Shown: piece after piece, positions 10,228-18,663 of the stretch
Layout of the letters: every line of letters starts with the position of its first letter
Position numbering within the stretch: the first letter of the stretch is position 1
Origin: a virus
Reading direction: 5' to 3' (one strand)
DNA length: 60,723 nucleotides
Virus record (IMG/VR): IMGVR_UViG_3300042868_002569
Span: 1-60,723 of that record
Notes under the pieces: model-generated
What the model saw: only the letters and a program-made list of their open reading frames with translations
Databases searched by the model: none
Told to the model about the DNA's origin: nothing
Program-made: the position numbers and the translations under genes

Positions 10228-10232
10228 CATGC

Positions 10233-10539
10233 AATGTTCCGTAAGTTCCGTGTAATGTTCCAGCTAAGTCGTTGATTATTAAGTAATGTTCTAATGTTCC
10301 TAATGTTCCGAGCTTTTTAGTAACTTTGGAAACGGAGAAAGCAAGACCCCCTTCAGATAGTGCAAGTCCTACGCAACAACTAATTTTAGTAATGGAGCCC
10401 GTCTACTATACTTATTAGAACATTAGAACATTATATATATATAGCTATAAATCTATTTTGTTCCGCTTATAAATCAACAACTTAGCAATGTTCCGCACTC
10501 TCAGAACATTCTAGAACATTACGGAACATTCGGAACAGT
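10233..10539. other. Iteron cluster, candidate replication origin
   Basis: A 300-base non-coding stretch holds about eleven copies of AATGTTCC or its complement with slight variants. Forward copies lie at 10233, 10254, 10285, 10293, 10302 and 10487. Inverse copies (AGAACATT or GGAACATT) lie at 10417, 10425, 10503, 10513 and 10523. Between the groups is an AT-rich run (about 10430-10458, containing TATATATATA). Iterons in both orientations around an AT-rich unwinding stretch are the usual build of a replication origin. A dense operator array is the main alternative. Confidence 0.6.
10466..10486 (+). repeat. 21-base direct repeat, copy A
   Basis: Begins CTTATAAATCAACAACTTAG. It is identical over 21 bases to 10541-10561, 75 bases downstream. 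The two copies bracket the last group of iterons. Confidence 0.85.
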
Positions 10540-10540
10540 C

Positions 10541-10666: not shown

Positions 10667-10683
10667 CTACCAAGGAGATTGTG

Positions 10684-11880: not shown

Positions 11881-11908
11881 GACAAAGTGTCAATGGTGAC
11901 ACTAAGTC
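11881..11908. promoter_or_regulatory. Palindrome copy 6 (GACA-type operator)
   Basis: GACAAAGTGTCA-atgg-TGACACTAAGTC, a 28 bp form. It lies 18 bases before the start at 11927 and is followed at once by the leader CTTAACCAAGGAGAAG, which recurs after copy 10's neighbour at 16506. Confidence 0.82.
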
Positions 11909-11926
11909 TTAACCAAGGAGAAGTAA

Positions 11927-12466
11927 ATGGACTTACCAATTGAAGTAATCAACGCAGTAAAACCAAAACCAAAGGCACGCAAGCCGTATGCACGTAAGCT
12001 AACTAAGCGTATCTTGCAAGCTATCGGTAGTGGGCTACGCACTTCAGCATCTATTGCTAAGGCATTGGATGTTGATAAAGCTAGGATTCAGTCTAACTTG
12101 CATCACATCAAGAACCGTGGGCTTGTCCATGCAACCAAGCAAGAAGGCAAGGTCGAGCTCAAGTATCACTTGGCAACGGAGACGGCAAAGCCGAAGGCAC
12201 GCAAGCCATATGCCAAGCGTGTGGCAAAAGTGGCAAAAGTGGCAAAAGTGGCAACGGTGGAAGTAAAACCAACTCTAATGCTAGGCAATTACGCCCGAGA
12301 ACTAGAAGTTAAGGTAGACCACATCACGAGCAAGCTCGTTTACTTGGAACAATCCTTGATAGATAAGGAGAAGGAAGTGTGGACTCTTGAGTGCGAAGTC
12401 TTTGATAAGAAAGCAATTATTAAATACTTGGAAGAGAAACTCTTTGCCCTTGGGGTGCGTGTATGA
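11927..12466 (+). CDS. Winged-helix DNA-binding protein with basic repeats and coiled coil
   Basis: 179 residues. Residues about 25-80 form a winged-helix domain (ILQAIGSGLRTSASIAKALD, then a recognition helix and a beta wing ending VELKYHLA). It is flanked by two copies of a basic motif, PKARKPYARK and PKARKPYAKR. A short tandem VAKVAKVAKV stretch follows, then a C-terminal coiled coil (about 125-175) that probably dimerises. It likely binds DNA as a regulator. It follows palindrome copy 6 and is a candidate for autoregulation. It overlaps the next gene by 4 bases. Confidence 0.7.
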   Translation: MDLPIEVINAVKPKPKARKPYARKLTKRILQAIGSGLRTSASIAKALDVDKARIQSNLHHIKNRGLVHATKQEGKVELKYHLATETAKPKARKPYAKRVAKVAKVAKVATVEVKPTLMLGNYARELEVKVDHITSKLVYLEQSLIDKEKEVWTLECEVFDKKAIIKYLEEKLFALGVRV

Positions 12467-13434: not shown

Positions 13435-13462
13435 CATTTAACCAAACCGAAAGGAACTAAAA

Positions 13463-14557
13463 ATGTCAGAAGTATTTATGCACCGCACCGTAACCCTCAA
13501 AGAAGCAGAGGACTTAATCGTATCAATGGGTTCTGATGCAACGGCTCACCTTGTAGGAGAACCGGGGGTTGGTAAGACCTCTATGTTCAACAATATTGTT
13601 AAGAGAACTGGCTATAAAGGGATTTACATTGACGCACCGAACATCGAGTTGGGCGAGTTGGGTGTTCCGATTCCCAATCACGAAACCAAAACGACACGCA
13701 TCTATCCAAACGAGCAATGGGGTTTTCATCTTGACGAGCCATTGGTTATCTTTGTTGACGAGTTCACCAAGGCACACCAAGCAGTTAAGAATATGTTGCA
13801 TCCGATGCTCAATGAACCAAGGCAAATCATGGGTATCCCATTGCACAAGGATACGATAGTCGTAACGGCAGGCAATTACTCAGGCGATGGTGTTGGCGAC
13901 CACATGATGAGTCACTCTCGCAATCGTATTACTGTGCTGACAGTCAAGAAACCACACGCAGGCTTTAACATTGATGGTTCTATTGACGATGATTCATGGG
14001 GTAAGTGGGCTATCTCAAGTGACATTGCACCTGAGATTCTTGCGTGGGTGAAGGAGAATCCGCACACTCTCGCATCCTATACTGACGCATCACAGGCAGG
14101 CAACAAGTATATCTTCAACCCAAAGGAATCGCAGAAGTCTTTTGTCAGTCCTCGTTCCCTTGCTAGAGCAAGTAATATTCTTAAGAAACGCCATATGGTC
14201 ACAGTCAACGCAACGATTACCGCACTACAGGGTACGATTGGAGCACCTGCTGCGAATGACTTGATGTCATATGTGGAAGTAGCCGATTCACTACCAACAT
14301 GGGAAAGTATTATCAAAGACCCGAAAACTGCACAAGTGCCAACATCACCTGCCGCTTTATGTCTATTGGCTTTCTCAGCAGTTCAGCGTGTGGACAGAGA
14401 AACTATTAGTAAGTTCTTTGAGTACCTACAACGCACACCGAAAGAGTTGCAGTCTGTGTTCTGTATTACAGGTATGAAGAACGACGATAAGAAGAAGCTA
14501 TTCCTTACTAGCCAATCATTCGTTGAGTGGATGCGTACCAATCAGTATTTATTCTAA
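13463..14557 (+). CDS. MoxR-type AAA+ ATPase
   Basis: 364 residues. Walker A is GEPGVGKTSM (residues 32-41) and Walker B is LVIFVDEF (about 94-101). An arginine-rich segment around SHSRNRITV fits the sensor/finger region of MoxR proteins. The family builds hexameric chaperone-like machines that work with VWA-domain proteins, and such a protein is encoded 307 bases downstream. The leader carries GAAAGGAACT ahead of the ATG. It probably remodels a host or phage complex in the cytoplasm. The substrate is unknown. Confidence 0.85.
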   Translation: MSEVFMHRTVTLKEAEDLIVSMGSDATAHLVGEPGVGKTSMFNNIVKRTGYKGIYIDAPNIELGELGVPIPNHETKTTRIYPNEQWGFHLDEPLVIFVDEFTKAHQAVKNMLHPMLNEPRQIMGIPLHKDTIVVTAGNYSGDGVGDHMMSHSRNRITVLTVKKPHAGFNIDGSIDDDSWGKWAISSDIAPEILAWVKENPHTLASYTDASQAGNKYIFNPKESQKSFVSPRSLARASNILKKRHMVTVNATITALQGTIGAPAANDLMSYVEVADSLPTWESIIKDPKTAQVPTSPAALCLLAFSAVQRVDRETISKFFEYLQRTPKELQSVFCITGMKNDDKKKLFLTSQSFVEWMRTNQYLF

Positions 14558-14584
14558 GACGGGGTGTCATGTTGACACTTTGTC
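14558..14584. promoter_or_regulatory. Palindrome copy 8 (GACA-type operator)
   Basis: GACGGGGTGTCA-tgt-TGACACTTTGTC. It begins directly after the ATPase stop codon and ends 17 bases before the start at 14602. The AACCAAGGAGAAG leader follows. Confidence 0.8.
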
Positions 14585-14601
14585 CAACCAAGGAGAAGTA
14601 A

Positions 14602-14877
14602 ATGGAAGAAAAAGAAATGAAAGCTAGGAAGGAACAGTTAATCCAAATGCGAGATGCATTGGGTTCTTACTTCGAGAAGGAAGATATGGAAGTGGGCATG
14701 GTAATGTCCGTGCTACTTACCATGCTAGTTGAAACAATGATAGAGCACGCAAAAATGGAACCTCATACTGCCATGCTTGTTATGACTAAGGCTGTTGCTC
14801 ATGCATACGAGGGACTTAACGATGATGAAGAAGATGATAACGATGACACTAAAGGAGAAACACAATGGCTAAACTAA
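14602..14877 (+). CDS. Small helical protein between MoxR and VWA genes
   Basis: 91 residues, Met-rich helices (EVGMVMSVLLTMLVETMIEH) with a very acidic C-terminal tail. It overlaps the VWA gene by 13 bases. Its place within the MoxR-VWA module suggests an adaptor or regulator of the complex. This is inference from position. Confidence 0.6.
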   Translation: MEEKEMKARKEQLIQMRDALGSYFEKEDMEVGMVMSVLLTMLVETMIEHAKMEPHTAMLVMTKAVAHAYEGLNDDEEDDNDDTKGETQWLN

Positions 14878-16094
14878 CTGCCGAGCAACGCATCGAGAAG
14901 GCTCATGTCCGCTTGATGCGACACCCAAACTATTGCTTGTTCTCAGGCTTATTCATGGTGGGTAAAGTAACAGTCGATGATGCAGTCGAGACTGCTAAGA
15001 CCAACGGTGTAGATGTAATCTATGGTAGAGAATTCGTTGACCGACTTAACGACAAGGAACTTGCTTTCCTTATCTTGCATGAGAATATGCACAAGGCTTA
15101 TCGCCACTTGATTGTGTGGGAATCTCTGTATCGCAAGAATCCACAGCTTGCTAACATGGCGTGTGACTATGTAATCAATCTGCAAATCCGTGATTACGAC
15201 CCACAATGCAATGAAACCGAGATGCCCAAAGATGCAGATGGTGAAGTCATGGGCTTGATTGACGAACAGTATCGTGGCATGGATGCATACCAAGTCTATA
15301 TATTGCTAGAGAAGGAGGAAAAGCAAGGCGGTAGCGGTGGTAGCGGTGATGGTAGCGGTCAGCCACAAGGCAATGGGAATGGTAAGCCACAACTTGACGA
15401 CCACGATTGGGAAGGTGCAAAGCAACAGACCGCCCAAGAGAAGGAACAAACAACTCGTGAAATTGAAGGTGCGTTGCGACAAGGTGCGTTACTTGCAGGC
15501 AAGATGAAAGGTAATCTCAGCCGAGAGATGCAAGACTTACTCACACCCAAGGTGAATTGGCGAGATGCATTGCGTGACTTCGTCAAGTCCTCAACTCAAG
15601 GCAAAGACCAAACCACATGGCGAAGATTGCATAAGCGTTACATTGGTATGGATATTATTATGCCGAGCACCTATGACGAGAAGGTGGGTAGCATCATGGT
15701 AGCCGTAGACACATCAGGTTCTATCGGTGGTGCAGAGCTTGCTCAGTTCTTGAGTGAGGTCAAGTCTATCTGTGAAGAAGTAAGTCCTGAGAAGATTGAC
15801 TTAATCTATTGGGATACTGAAGTTGCAGGTCATGAAACCTATCAAAGCAACGAGCTATCAAACATTACGCAAGTAACAGAAGCTAAGGGTGGTGGCGGTA
15901 CAGACCCATCATGCGTGCCTAAGTATGTAACTAAAAACAGACTTGAGCCTGAGTGCGTAATCATGCTAACCGACGGCTACATTGGGAGACAGAATGAAAA
16001 CGATTATCAGATTGGTAAGCCGTTTATGTGGTGCATCAAAGGTAATCCAAACTTCAACGAAGATGTCGTTGGAAAGGTTGTCCATGTCGAATGA
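14865..16094 (+). CDS. VWA-domain protein with metallopeptidase motif
   Basis: 409 residues. The N-terminal half has the zinc-binding motif HENMH (72-76) in a helix, as in the predicted VWA-like metallopeptidases. A Gly/Ser/Gln-rich linker (about 150-180) follows. The C-terminal VWA domain has the MIDAS motif DTSGS at about 281-285 and the later MLTDGYIG. It is expected to bind metal and act with the MoxR ATPase. No signal peptide is present, so it is cytoplasmic. It overlaps the next gene by 11 bases. Confidence 0.82.
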   Translation: MAKLTAEQRIEKAHVRLMRHPNYCLFSGLFMVGKVTVDDAVETAKTNGVDVIYGREFVDRLNDKELAFLILHENMHKAYRHLIVWESLYRKNPQLANMACDYVINLQIRDYDPQCNETEMPKDADGEVMGLIDEQYRGMDAYQVYILLEKEEKQGGSGGSGDGSGQPQGNGNGKPQLDDHDWEGAKQQTAQEKEQTTREIEGALRQGALLAGKMKGNLSREMQDLLTPKVNWRDALRDFVKSSTQGKDQTTWRRLHKRYIGMDIIMPSTYDEKVGSIMVAVDTSGSIGGAELAQFLSEVKSICEEVSPEKIDLIYWDTEVAGHETYQSNELSNITQVTEAKGGGGTDPSCVPKYVTKNRLEPECVIMLTDGYIGRQNENDYQIGKPFMWCIKGNPNFNEDVVGKVVHVE

Positions 16095-16341
16095 CGATAC
16101 CCCATTTATTATTAGCGTAGCTAATGTCGTGCTAGACAAAGACGAACTAGCCGAGCTCATGTCTTTCTTGCGTAGTAAGAAGTTCTTGTATCGTGAATAC
16201 AAAGGCGCAAACAAGGGCTTTGATGGTGGCGAGTATGACTTCTCGTTTGTCAGATGTGATGAGAAATCAAGGGTAGAGATTTCGCCTGTCAATGAAGCAT
16301 TGTGGTTGTACTTAAATACTTTTGGAAAGGAAACTAAATGA
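16084..16341 (+). CDS. Small protein following the VWA gene
   Basis: 85 residues from the ATG at 16084, preceded by GGAAAGG with a 6-base gap. An earlier in-frame start at 15982 lies deep in the VWA gene and is unlikely. It is acidic, mixed alpha/beta, with no motif recognised. It overlaps both neighbours (11 and 4 bases). Confidence 0.5.
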   Translation: MSNDDTPFIISVANVVLDKDELAELMSFLRSKKFLYREYKGANKGFDGGEYDFSFVRCDEKSRVEISPVNEALWLYLNTFGKETK

Positions 16342-16523
16342 CTACCGTACCTAAAGGTCGTGCTAAAGATGGCAAGGTCAATGTCAGTCTTAATCCTGAG
16401 ACTGTGGAGATGCTTGCCGTTATCAAAGATAAGATGGCTGAGGATATGGGGTTCAAGCTAACCTATTCTCAAGCAATCCAACATTTAATTAAGTATTACG
16501 AAAACGACAGAGTGTCAAACTGA
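16338..16523 (+). CDS. Ribbon-helix-helix DNA-binding protein
   Basis: 61 residues. KVNVSLNPETVEMLAVIKDK gives the beta strand and first helix of an Arc/CopG-type fold, and the second helix follows at LTYSQAIQHLIKYYEN. Such proteins dimerise and bind short palindromes, often as tandem dimers. Its last codons and stop (TGA at 16521-16523) lie inside palindrome copy 9, so it is well placed to bind that site and control itself. The upstream leader is GGAAAGGAAACTAA. Good candidate for the regulator of the palindrome set. Confidence 0.75.
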   Translation: MTTVPKGRAKDGKVNVSLNPETVEMLAVIKDKMAEDMGFKLTYSQAIQHLIKYYENDRVSN

Positions 16524-16532
16524 CACTCTGTC
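16506..16532. promoter_or_regulatory. Palindrome copy 9, the only fully symmetric copy
   Basis: GACAGAGTGTCA-aac-TGACACTCTGTC has perfect 12 bp arms. It covers the end of the ribbon-helix-helix gene and lies 18 bases before the start at 16551, followed by CTTAACCAAGGAGAAG. Confidence 0.88.
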
Positions 16533-16550
16533 TTAACCAAGGAGAAGTAA

Positions 16551-17420
16551 ATGAACACGAATAACAGTATAAGTATTGCATCATCAGCGATGCTAGTTGA
16601 ACTAAGCATCAGCGGTTGGACTGCACGCAAGTTGGATAAGAAAGTATCTGCCGAGATTGATGTGGCTAAAGGCACGCAGACTCAAGCAGGTAATTACAAC
16701 AAGAACCTACTAGCAGGCACAGGGTTCTTGGATACTATCACTAAGTATGCCTCTAGTTCTAGAGCATGGCATATTTCTCAGACCTTACCTTGGTCAGATA
16801 GTGGTGTGCGTTTGTTACCTGTGTCTAACTTCATCGCTTACAAGGAACAACTAAATAAGCTAGAAGAAAACTACACCGCCCTAGTCCACAAGTTTGTAGA
16901 TGCGTACCCTAACTTAGTGACAGCGGCTGCGTTTCAATTGGGCAATCTATTCGACAGAACAGAATACCCCGATGCGGATAAGATATTCCACAAGTTCAAG
17001 TTCAGTTGTAACTTCTTTCCTGTCCCGCAGGCAGGTGACTTCCGAGTAGACATAGGCGAGGAAGCCAAGCAAGAACTAGCTAACTCATGCCAACACGCAT
17101 ACGAGGAAAGACTTAACAACGCTATGGGTGAGGTATGGCAACGATTGCATAAGTGTCTATCCAATGTTAGCGAAAGGCTTACGCTCAATAGTGACGGGGA
17201 AGAAAAGTTATTCCGAGATAGCTTGGTTGGTAATGCTCACGAACTAATCGAACTGCTGACACACCTTAACATCACGAAAGACCCCAAGCTTGAGCAAGCT
17301 CGCATAGAGTTGAACGAGGCTATCGGGCATCATGATGCCGATTCCCTACGCAGAAGTGTGGTTGCCAAAGAAGCAGTCAAGAGCAAAGTTGATTCAATCT
17401 TATCTAAATTTGAATTTTGA
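16551..17420 (+). CDS. Protein resembling phage DUF3150-type proteins
   Basis: 289 residues, largely helical, with central Cys/Phe-rich segment FKFSCNFFPVPQAGDFRVDI and a long helical C-terminus. Proteins of this shape occur next to MoxR and VWA genes in phages and plasmids and carry the DUF3150 label, as far as I recall; a profile search is needed. It may be the third component of the MoxR-VWA module. It starts after palindrome copy 9 with AAGGAG. Confidence 0.55.
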   Translation: MNTNNSISIASSAMLVELSISGWTARKLDKKVSAEIDVAKGTQTQAGNYNKNLLAGTGFLDTITKYASSSRAWHISQTLPWSDSGVRLLPVSNFIAYKEQLNKLEENYTALVHKFVDAYPNLVTAAAFQLGNLFDRTEYPDADKIFHKFKFSCNFFPVPQAGDFRVDIGEEAKQELANSCQHAYEERLNNAMGEVWQRLHKCLSNVSERLTLNSDGEEKLFRDSLVGNAHELIELLTHLNITKDPKLEQARIELNEAIGHHDADSLRRSVVAKEAVKSKVDSILSKFEF

Positions 17421-18295: not shown

Positions 18296-18301
18296 ATAAA
18301 C

Positions 18302-18330
18302 TTGAATAAAAATAGCAGTAGCACTATACT
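18302..18330 (+). promoter_or_regulatory. Sigma-70-type promoter of the candidate small RNA
   Basis: TTGAAT (18302-18307), a 17-base spacer and TATACT (18325-18330). The expected start is near 18336. No gene follows before the terminator at 18500-18534. Confidence 0.75.
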
Positions 18331-18335
18331 GATAG

Positions 18336-18534
18336 TGAACTCTACCTCCTTGGTTAAGTTCCTTTCAAGGTTGCTCTTGGTTTTGCCTAGTAGATGTATT
18401 ACCAAGAGATGGCTAACGCCAGCAATCTCCCTTACCGTAAGTAGGATGCGGAATCTACTTTTGCCTACATAGCTTTAGCTAACATTGCATTACCTCCGAC
18501 CCCCTAGTCCTGCAAGATTAGGGGGTTTTCTTTT
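18336..18534 (+). ncRNA. Candidate phage small RNA with anti-ribosome-site 5' region
   Basis: About 200 bases between a promoter and a strong terminator with no credible gene. The 5' part contains CTCCTTGGTTAAG (18346-18358), the exact complement of CTTAACCAAGGAG at 11908-11920 and 16532-16544, that is, the ribosome sites of two genes. Ten bases also match the site before 14602 and nine the one before 10684. Next to it, AGTTCCTTTC (18357-18366) is the complement of GAAAGGAACT before the MoxR gene. Stems CTCTTGGT/ACCAAGAG (18374-18381, 18401-18408) and AAGTAG/CTACTT (18439-18444, 18455-18460) follow. A 16-codon frame at 18393 lacks a ribosome site. I infer translational repression in trans. 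Confidence 0.62.
18500..18534 (+). terminator. Rho-independent terminator of the small RNA / early operon
   Basis: CCCCCTAGTC (18500-18509) pairs with GATTAGGGGG (18516-18525) over 10 bp with one G-T pair, followed by TTTTCTTTT. It closes the small RNA and any read-through from the early operon. Confidence 0.92.
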
Positions 18535-18535
18535 G

Positions 18536-18562
18536 GACAAAGTGTCAAGTTGACACTGTGTC
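18536..18562. promoter_or_regulatory. Palindrome copy 10 (GACA-type operator)
   Basis: GACAAAGTGTCA-agt-TGACACTGTGTC. It lies just past the terminator and 40 bases upstream of the -35 box at 18603, so it is not in a leader next to a ribosome site. Last copy of the set. Confidence 0.85.
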
Positions 18563-18602
18563 CTATTAGGGTATGCACCTATAAAATAATTTAAAGTTTC
18601 GC

Positions 18603-18639
18603 TTGATTTCCTAAAACATGGGAACTATACTGTGTATAG
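18603..18639 (+). promoter_or_regulatory. Promoter of the replication operon with symmetric -10 region
   Basis: TTGATT (18603-18608), a 17-base spacer and TATACT (18626-18631). The -10 box is embedded in CTATAC-tgt-GTATAG (18625-18639), a perfect 6 bp inverted repeat that could be an operator. It reads into the nuclease gene at 18664. Confidence 0.75.
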
Positions 18640-18663
18640 AATCACTACACAAAAGCCGAAACC

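Follow-up and report, generated by a model that had tools for sequence, protein, structure and literature searches.

Positions 18337 to 18534 of the window (a 60.7-kb virus record of a tailed phage, analysed over its whole length) probably hold the gene of a trans-acting small RNA. Its seed would pair with Shine-Dalgarno leaders of the same phage and block ribosome binding there; from genome comparison, we put the probability of this reading at roughly 0.85. Unless stated otherwise, features described below are on the plus strand.

In the window, the genes for terminase, portal and tail proteins are on the minus strand, while those for DNA polymerase, helicase and primase are on the plus strand. 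A blastn search of GenBank phages with the window DNA gave 0 matches, and the window DNA polymerase was at most about 35% identical to those of isolates, so that no annotated relative was of use. In bacterial genomes, a pattern scan for the RNA also gave 0 matches and the nearest MoxR was a 28% relative. Related phages were collected via genes 18664, 16551, the DNA polymerase and MoxR, with gene starts called by a simple script. They keep the order MoxR, VWA protein (DUF2201), DUF3150-like protein, 17417, 18664 and polymerase.

The initial annotation had described a promoter, a hairpin terminator with a T-run and the absence of a credible gene between them, and we found all three. The promoter (18302–18330) consists of a -35 box TTGAAT, a 17-nt spacer and a -10 box TATACT; the terminator (18498–18534) is a strong hairpin followed by a T-run, with the tail UUUUCUUUU; and no ORF of at least 60 aa lies within 18296–18663. 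The window had 28 promoter-like sites compared to 38.5 in shuffled sequences, i.e., no excess, so the promoter, whose -35 box is weak (4/6), says little by itself. With its start placed 7 nt past the -10 box, the predicted RNA is about 198 nt long (18337–18534), and none of 200 shuffles of this stretch folded as well (z -3.9). Among the 34 family members, 27 had a -10 box (5/6 or better) ahead of the RNA and 27 had a terminator; both were present in essentially the whole close clade. Relatives L015, L017, L047, L006 and L053 carry the core described below without a recognisable promoter and/or terminator, which would suit processing or a cis role in those phages. We dropped the idea that the opposite strand serves as leader to a gene on the minus strand, since the ORF list contains none of that kind.

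Near the predicted 5' end, seed 1 (CTCCTTGGTTAAG, 18346–18358) is antisense to the leaders of genes 11927 (11908–11920) and 16551, the DUF3150-like gene (16532–16544), over 13 nt each, to that of gene 14602 (14586–14595) over 10 nt and to that of gene 10684 (10669–10677) over 9 nt. The overlapping seed 1b (AGTTCCTTTC, 18357–18366) is antisense to the 10-nt leader GAAAGGAACT of the MoxR gene 13463 (13449–13458). All these lengths agree with the initial annotation. The 13-base leader sequence CTTAACCAAGGAG occurs exactly at three sites of the window only, 11908 and 16532 on the plus strand and 18346–18358 on the minus strand. The seed pairing covers the Shine-Dalgarno sequence in all five leaders.

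Such matches had been called very unlikely by chance. In 3000 dinucleotide shuffles of 18337–18500, a run of at least 13 bases to any leader appeared in 0.37%, and six leaders with at least 9 bases appeared in none; on the other hand, the two 13-base leaders should not be counted as independent, because both lie within one 36-base direct repeat. The seed is partly contained in a predicted 5' hairpin P0 (GAACT/AGTTC, 18337–18361), whose loop holds the UCCUU of seed 1 with a predicted unpaired probability of 1.0 at 18347–18351; this loop would be a sensible place for first contact. P0-like hairpins were seen by eye in L031, L200, L020 and L128.

We compared the RNA of each genome with the leaders of that same genome. 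We observed that seeds are lineage-specific and match the phage's own leaders, as the window seed does for 16551 and 11927. For example, the seed of L035 (CTTCTTGGTTA) and that of L129/L131 (CCTTCTTGGTTA) each match three own leaders including those of MoxR and 16551, and the seed of L025/L128 (ATTCCTTTTTGTT(G)) matches their own 16551 and MoxR leaders. The seeds of L024 (TGTTTCCTTTC) and L031 (TTCTCCTTGT) match the respective 16551 leaders, and that of L027 (GTAATTTCCTTTC) matches leaders of its own phage. In L200, found later, the seed AACTCCTTGTTT matches 10 bases of the phage's own MoxR leader and 9 bases of CAAGGAGTT, the leader that precedes a 179-aa gene. MoxR and the DUF3150-like gene 16551 are the recurrent targets across relatives. 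In the close lineages L022, L028 and L113 the matches are of 8–10 bases only, near the level given by RNAs of other lineages.

Purine-rich leaders are readily matched by any RNA rich in C and U, an effect for which the reassignment tests control. Among 16 groups, cognate RNAs scored 16.0 compared to 4.0 (sd 1.7) for reassigned ones, and 0 of 20000 reassignments were as high; for the 5' segment alone, the values were 27.3 and 8.7, again with 0/20000. Grouping lowered the phylogenetic dependence in these comparisons, with some ancestry still shared between groups. The joint change of antisense segment and leaders that the initial annotation had proposed to look for is therefore seen in related phages. 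Duplex energies favoured the cognate RNA at the leaders of 16551 (0/20000), MoxR (34/20000) and 18664 (32/20000), while no cognate effect was found by this test at the leaders of polymerase gene 19190 and gene 12463. A seed that co-varies with leaders encoded elsewhere is what is expected of a trans-acting base-pairing RNA. In the subgroup with such seeds, the address segment very probably controls the phage's own MoxR-operon genes by base pairing.

The rest of the RNA contains a conserved pseudoknotted core. A loose structure descriptor produced mostly chance matches, and stricter descriptors together with a covariance model were used instead; descriptor scans and manual parsing yielded 34 cores. 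The common order is hairpin P1 with GCAGAT in its loop, an optional hairpin P2, hairpin P3, an ATCTGC strand that pairs back to the P1 loop (pseudoknot PK1), and a strand that pairs with the P3 loop (PK2). In the window, P1 spans 18374–18408 (18374–18381 with 18401–18408), and its loop carries the PK1 strand GTAGAT (18390–18395), which by family comparison pairs with ATCTAC (18453–18458). P2 (TGGC/GCCA, 18410–18421) was recognised by eye across relatives. P3 (CCGTA/TGCGG, 18435–18451), also placed by family comparison, has in its loop the PK2 strand GTAGG (18441–18445), the partner of CCTAC at 18464–18468. PK2 occurs in the family as 14 pairing types, e.g., GTAGG/CCTAC, GGCGGG/CCCGCC, GCAAGG/CCTTGC and GGATAG/CTATCC.

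Compensatory changes supporting the helices, as expected of a structured RNA family, were found. For 15 in-register sequences, 96.4% of the cells were paired, and both sides had changed in 44 cells compared to 14.4 in shuffles. The covariation score was 0.513; shuffles gave 0.196, and slid sequences gave no more than 0.116. Since each RNA entered this alignment as two joined segments that were picked with knowledge of the structure, part of the excess over the slid versions is expected. Partner-swap tests gave 0/20000 for both PK2 and P1. Trained on 26 relatives without the window, a covariance model had one match in the window, at 18387–18470 (56.8 bits, E 2.5e-13). Of 72 further loci outside its training, it matched 10, most of them at this intergenic site, and the others gave no match. 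A viral pattern scan returned 41 stretches, most of them without a paired core; the true ones belonged to the same phage clade.

Among the close relatives (MoxR 76–85% identical), every intergenic region between 17417 and 18664 that was available in full contains the RNA. Many distant phages also carry it there, and in many others the intergenic region is short and lacks it. The core was also observed elsewhere in the genome, in L015 (7272–7377), L017 (7321–7428) and L047 (6438–6553).

A further stretch between P2 and P3 (18423–18430, CAATCTCC) is an 8-nt complement of GGAGATTG before gene 10684. The family-wide cognate test of this candidate seed 2 was modest (172/20000). In more distant phages (L040, L041, L154, L160 and L162), the stretch from P1/P2 to P3 matches the 17417 leader at 5/5 loci (GATTGGA type), and in L141 GCAACTCC matches the phage's own 17417 leader GGAGTTGC. 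The held-out L166 had no clear orthologous seed-2 target. Taken as sequence matches, these data are suggestive of a real second seed. As a separate observation, L040, L141, L154, L160 and L162 have an orthologous 231–242-aa gene behind the palindrome, and its leader, too, is matched by the seed-2 stretch.

We propose that the sigma-70-like promoter and the terminator would yield an independent transcript of about 200 nt, whose 3' half would form the core, in which two hairpins are combined with two interlocked pseudoknots, and whose 5' segment would be a variable antisense seed partly shown in a hairpin loop. By pairing with the Shine-Dalgarno leaders of 10684, 11927, MoxR 13463, 14602 and the DUF3150-like gene 16551, the RNA would block ribosome binding on the whole operon group at once. 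Encoded downstream of the operon, it would repress several early units at the level of translation. In some distant relatives, seed 2 appears to do likewise for gene 17417. The core might serve stability, protein binding or seed display. Structure, place and seed-leader co-variation come from comparison of genomes, while we infer transcription, timing and repression rather than activation. Thus, of the silencing RNA suggested initially, the conserved RNA gene and its co-variation with the leaders are borne out, and the silencing itself is deduced from the predicted duplexes over the Shine-Dalgarno sequences; the pseudoknotted core, the possible second seed and the palindromes had no place in the initial annotation.

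An unlikely but serious possibility is that function resides in the pseudoknotted core, which would bind a protein or ligand, resist nucleases or act as a catalyst, and that the antisense was added in particular lineages and adjusted to their leaders. The core is indeed more widespread than the 5' seed: the distant L051, L168 and L187 keep it without a convincing 5' match to leaders, and therefore it must have a value beyond the seed. In L015 and L017, where MoxR and the VWA gene flank the core, no promoter or terminator is visible. Loss of the antisense with the leader kept had been named as evidence against the silencing RNA, and this was partly the case, in that L051 and L187 keep the core and an AACCAAGGAG leader without the antisense. 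The antisense may thus be a function added to the core. Still, the seed-leader co-variation in the window clade is very strong, so that pairing is important in this clade regardless of what the core is for. A bolder and rather doubtful extension would see here a new phage RNA class, a double-pseudoknot scaffold that is retained in distant phages, bears exchangeable antisense seeds and senses a ligand or a phage protein, and that would thereby open or mask, in concert, the ribosome-binding sites of a whole set of early genes.

The direction of the pairing effect could also be the reverse, with target mRNAs acting as sponges or RNA protectors or with pairing activating translation; many leaders share one sequence, and sequence gives no direction. 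We consider this improbable given that the pairing covers the Shine-Dalgarno sequence in the five window leaders, and a duplex over that sequence normally blocks translation. It is very improbable that, instead of giving a free RNA, the element acts in cis on gene 18664 as its leader or attenuator. The RNA does lie directly upstream of 18664 (and close before it in L006 and L053), and the 18664 leader shows cognate pairing too, as given above; however, a terminator, a palindrome and a separate TATACT promoter stand between the RNA and 18664 in the close clade, and the position differs in L015, L017 and L047. Hardly credible is a chance resemblance of CU-rich intergenic DNA to an anti-Shine-Dalgarno sequence combined with duplication of one leader. 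The two 13-nt leaders are one repeat and UUCCUUUC alone matches many leaders, as such a chance origin would have it, but the shuffles, the reassignment tests, the structure covariation and the held-out model all contradict it. The trans-acting small RNA remains our preferred reading.

With respect to known RNAs, Rfam 15 at the gathering cut-off gave no family match in the window. Among eight relatives, it gave one unrelated tRNA, and permissive searches gave sub-threshold matches only. Homology to the c4 RNA was not indicated either, as there was no gathering match in the window for 4227 models, which we take to include c4. The c4 antisense RNA of P1 and P7 forms base pairs around the ribosome-binding site of one of its phage's own genes, and the complementary sequences probably lie in loops (PMC12197685). 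The window RNA is alike in being a phage RNA predicted to pair with ribosome-binding sites of its own phage; c4 has one target (ant mRNA) and an immunity function, whereas the window RNA matches several separate leaders and has a pseudoknotted core. The sar RNA of P22 and the OOP and aQ RNAs of lambda exert antisense control of own phage genes, sar by hindering translation initiation, and reviewed phage RNAs acting on their own phage's genes mostly have one target (PMC12197685). Each of sar, OOP and aQ is described with a single target gene, while the window RNA would have several and is encoded apart from them.

VpdS (VP882) and PreS (lambda) are trans-acting phage small RNAs described as Hfq-dependent; VpdS affects phage and host mRNAs, and PreS acts on host dnaN (PMC12197685). 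The window RNA resembles them in its proposed action in trans and differs in shape and targets. In staphylococci, RsaA and other C-rich-loop RNAs have a C-rich segment that pairs with the target Shine-Dalgarno sequence (PMC3961350). The likeness lies in this mode of pairing; those RNAs are host-encoded, while in the window RNA family the seeds change with the phage lineage.

No description of the window RNA was found in the searchable literature, in which few subscription papers are included; within that literature the family appears undescribed. Antisense blocking of a phage ribosome-binding site is known (c4, sar); new would be the several targets, the exchangeable seed and the non-Rfam pseudoknotted scaffold. 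If the reading is true, a single small RNA of a conserved family would act on several early genes of its phage, and the many lineages would preserve a natural history of how seeds and targets evolved together. From that history exact seeds and targets can be predicted, so compensatory mutations offer a direct test of the mechanism. It would also provide a computational approach, of a kind that is rare, to post-transcriptional control in uncultured phages.

The neighbourhood of the RNA has several features of its own. A MoxR-type AAA ATPase, a VWA protein (DUF2201) and a DUF3150-like protein form a module (13463–17420) kept across these phages. PADLOC found no defence system in the target genes. 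The target gene 11927–12466 has weak matches of the CARF/winged-helix type (Csa3, CasR; best E 2e-5), and its product is possibly a DNA-binding regulator. Ahead of the early genes, the non-coding stretch 10230–10540 is rich in TGTTC/GAACA repeats (aatgttcc, gaacatt) and is possibly an origin or iteron region.

Directly after the terminator, at 18536–18563, lies a copy of a 28-nt palindrome, GACA-NAGTGTCA-N3-TGACACT-NTGTC. About ten copies are present (9315, 9421, 10118, 10639, 11523, 11881, 13408, 14558, 16506 and 18536), mostly directly upstream of ribosome-binding leaders. As all five target leaders come after a copy, the palindrome and the leader behind it together resemble a regulatory module present in several copies; the palindrome could be an operator, a terminator or a processing site. 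Related phages have their own palindrome at equivalent places, e.g., GGACAAAATAAG... in L025 and CGGACAAAACCG... in L040, and some of these are followed by a T-run.
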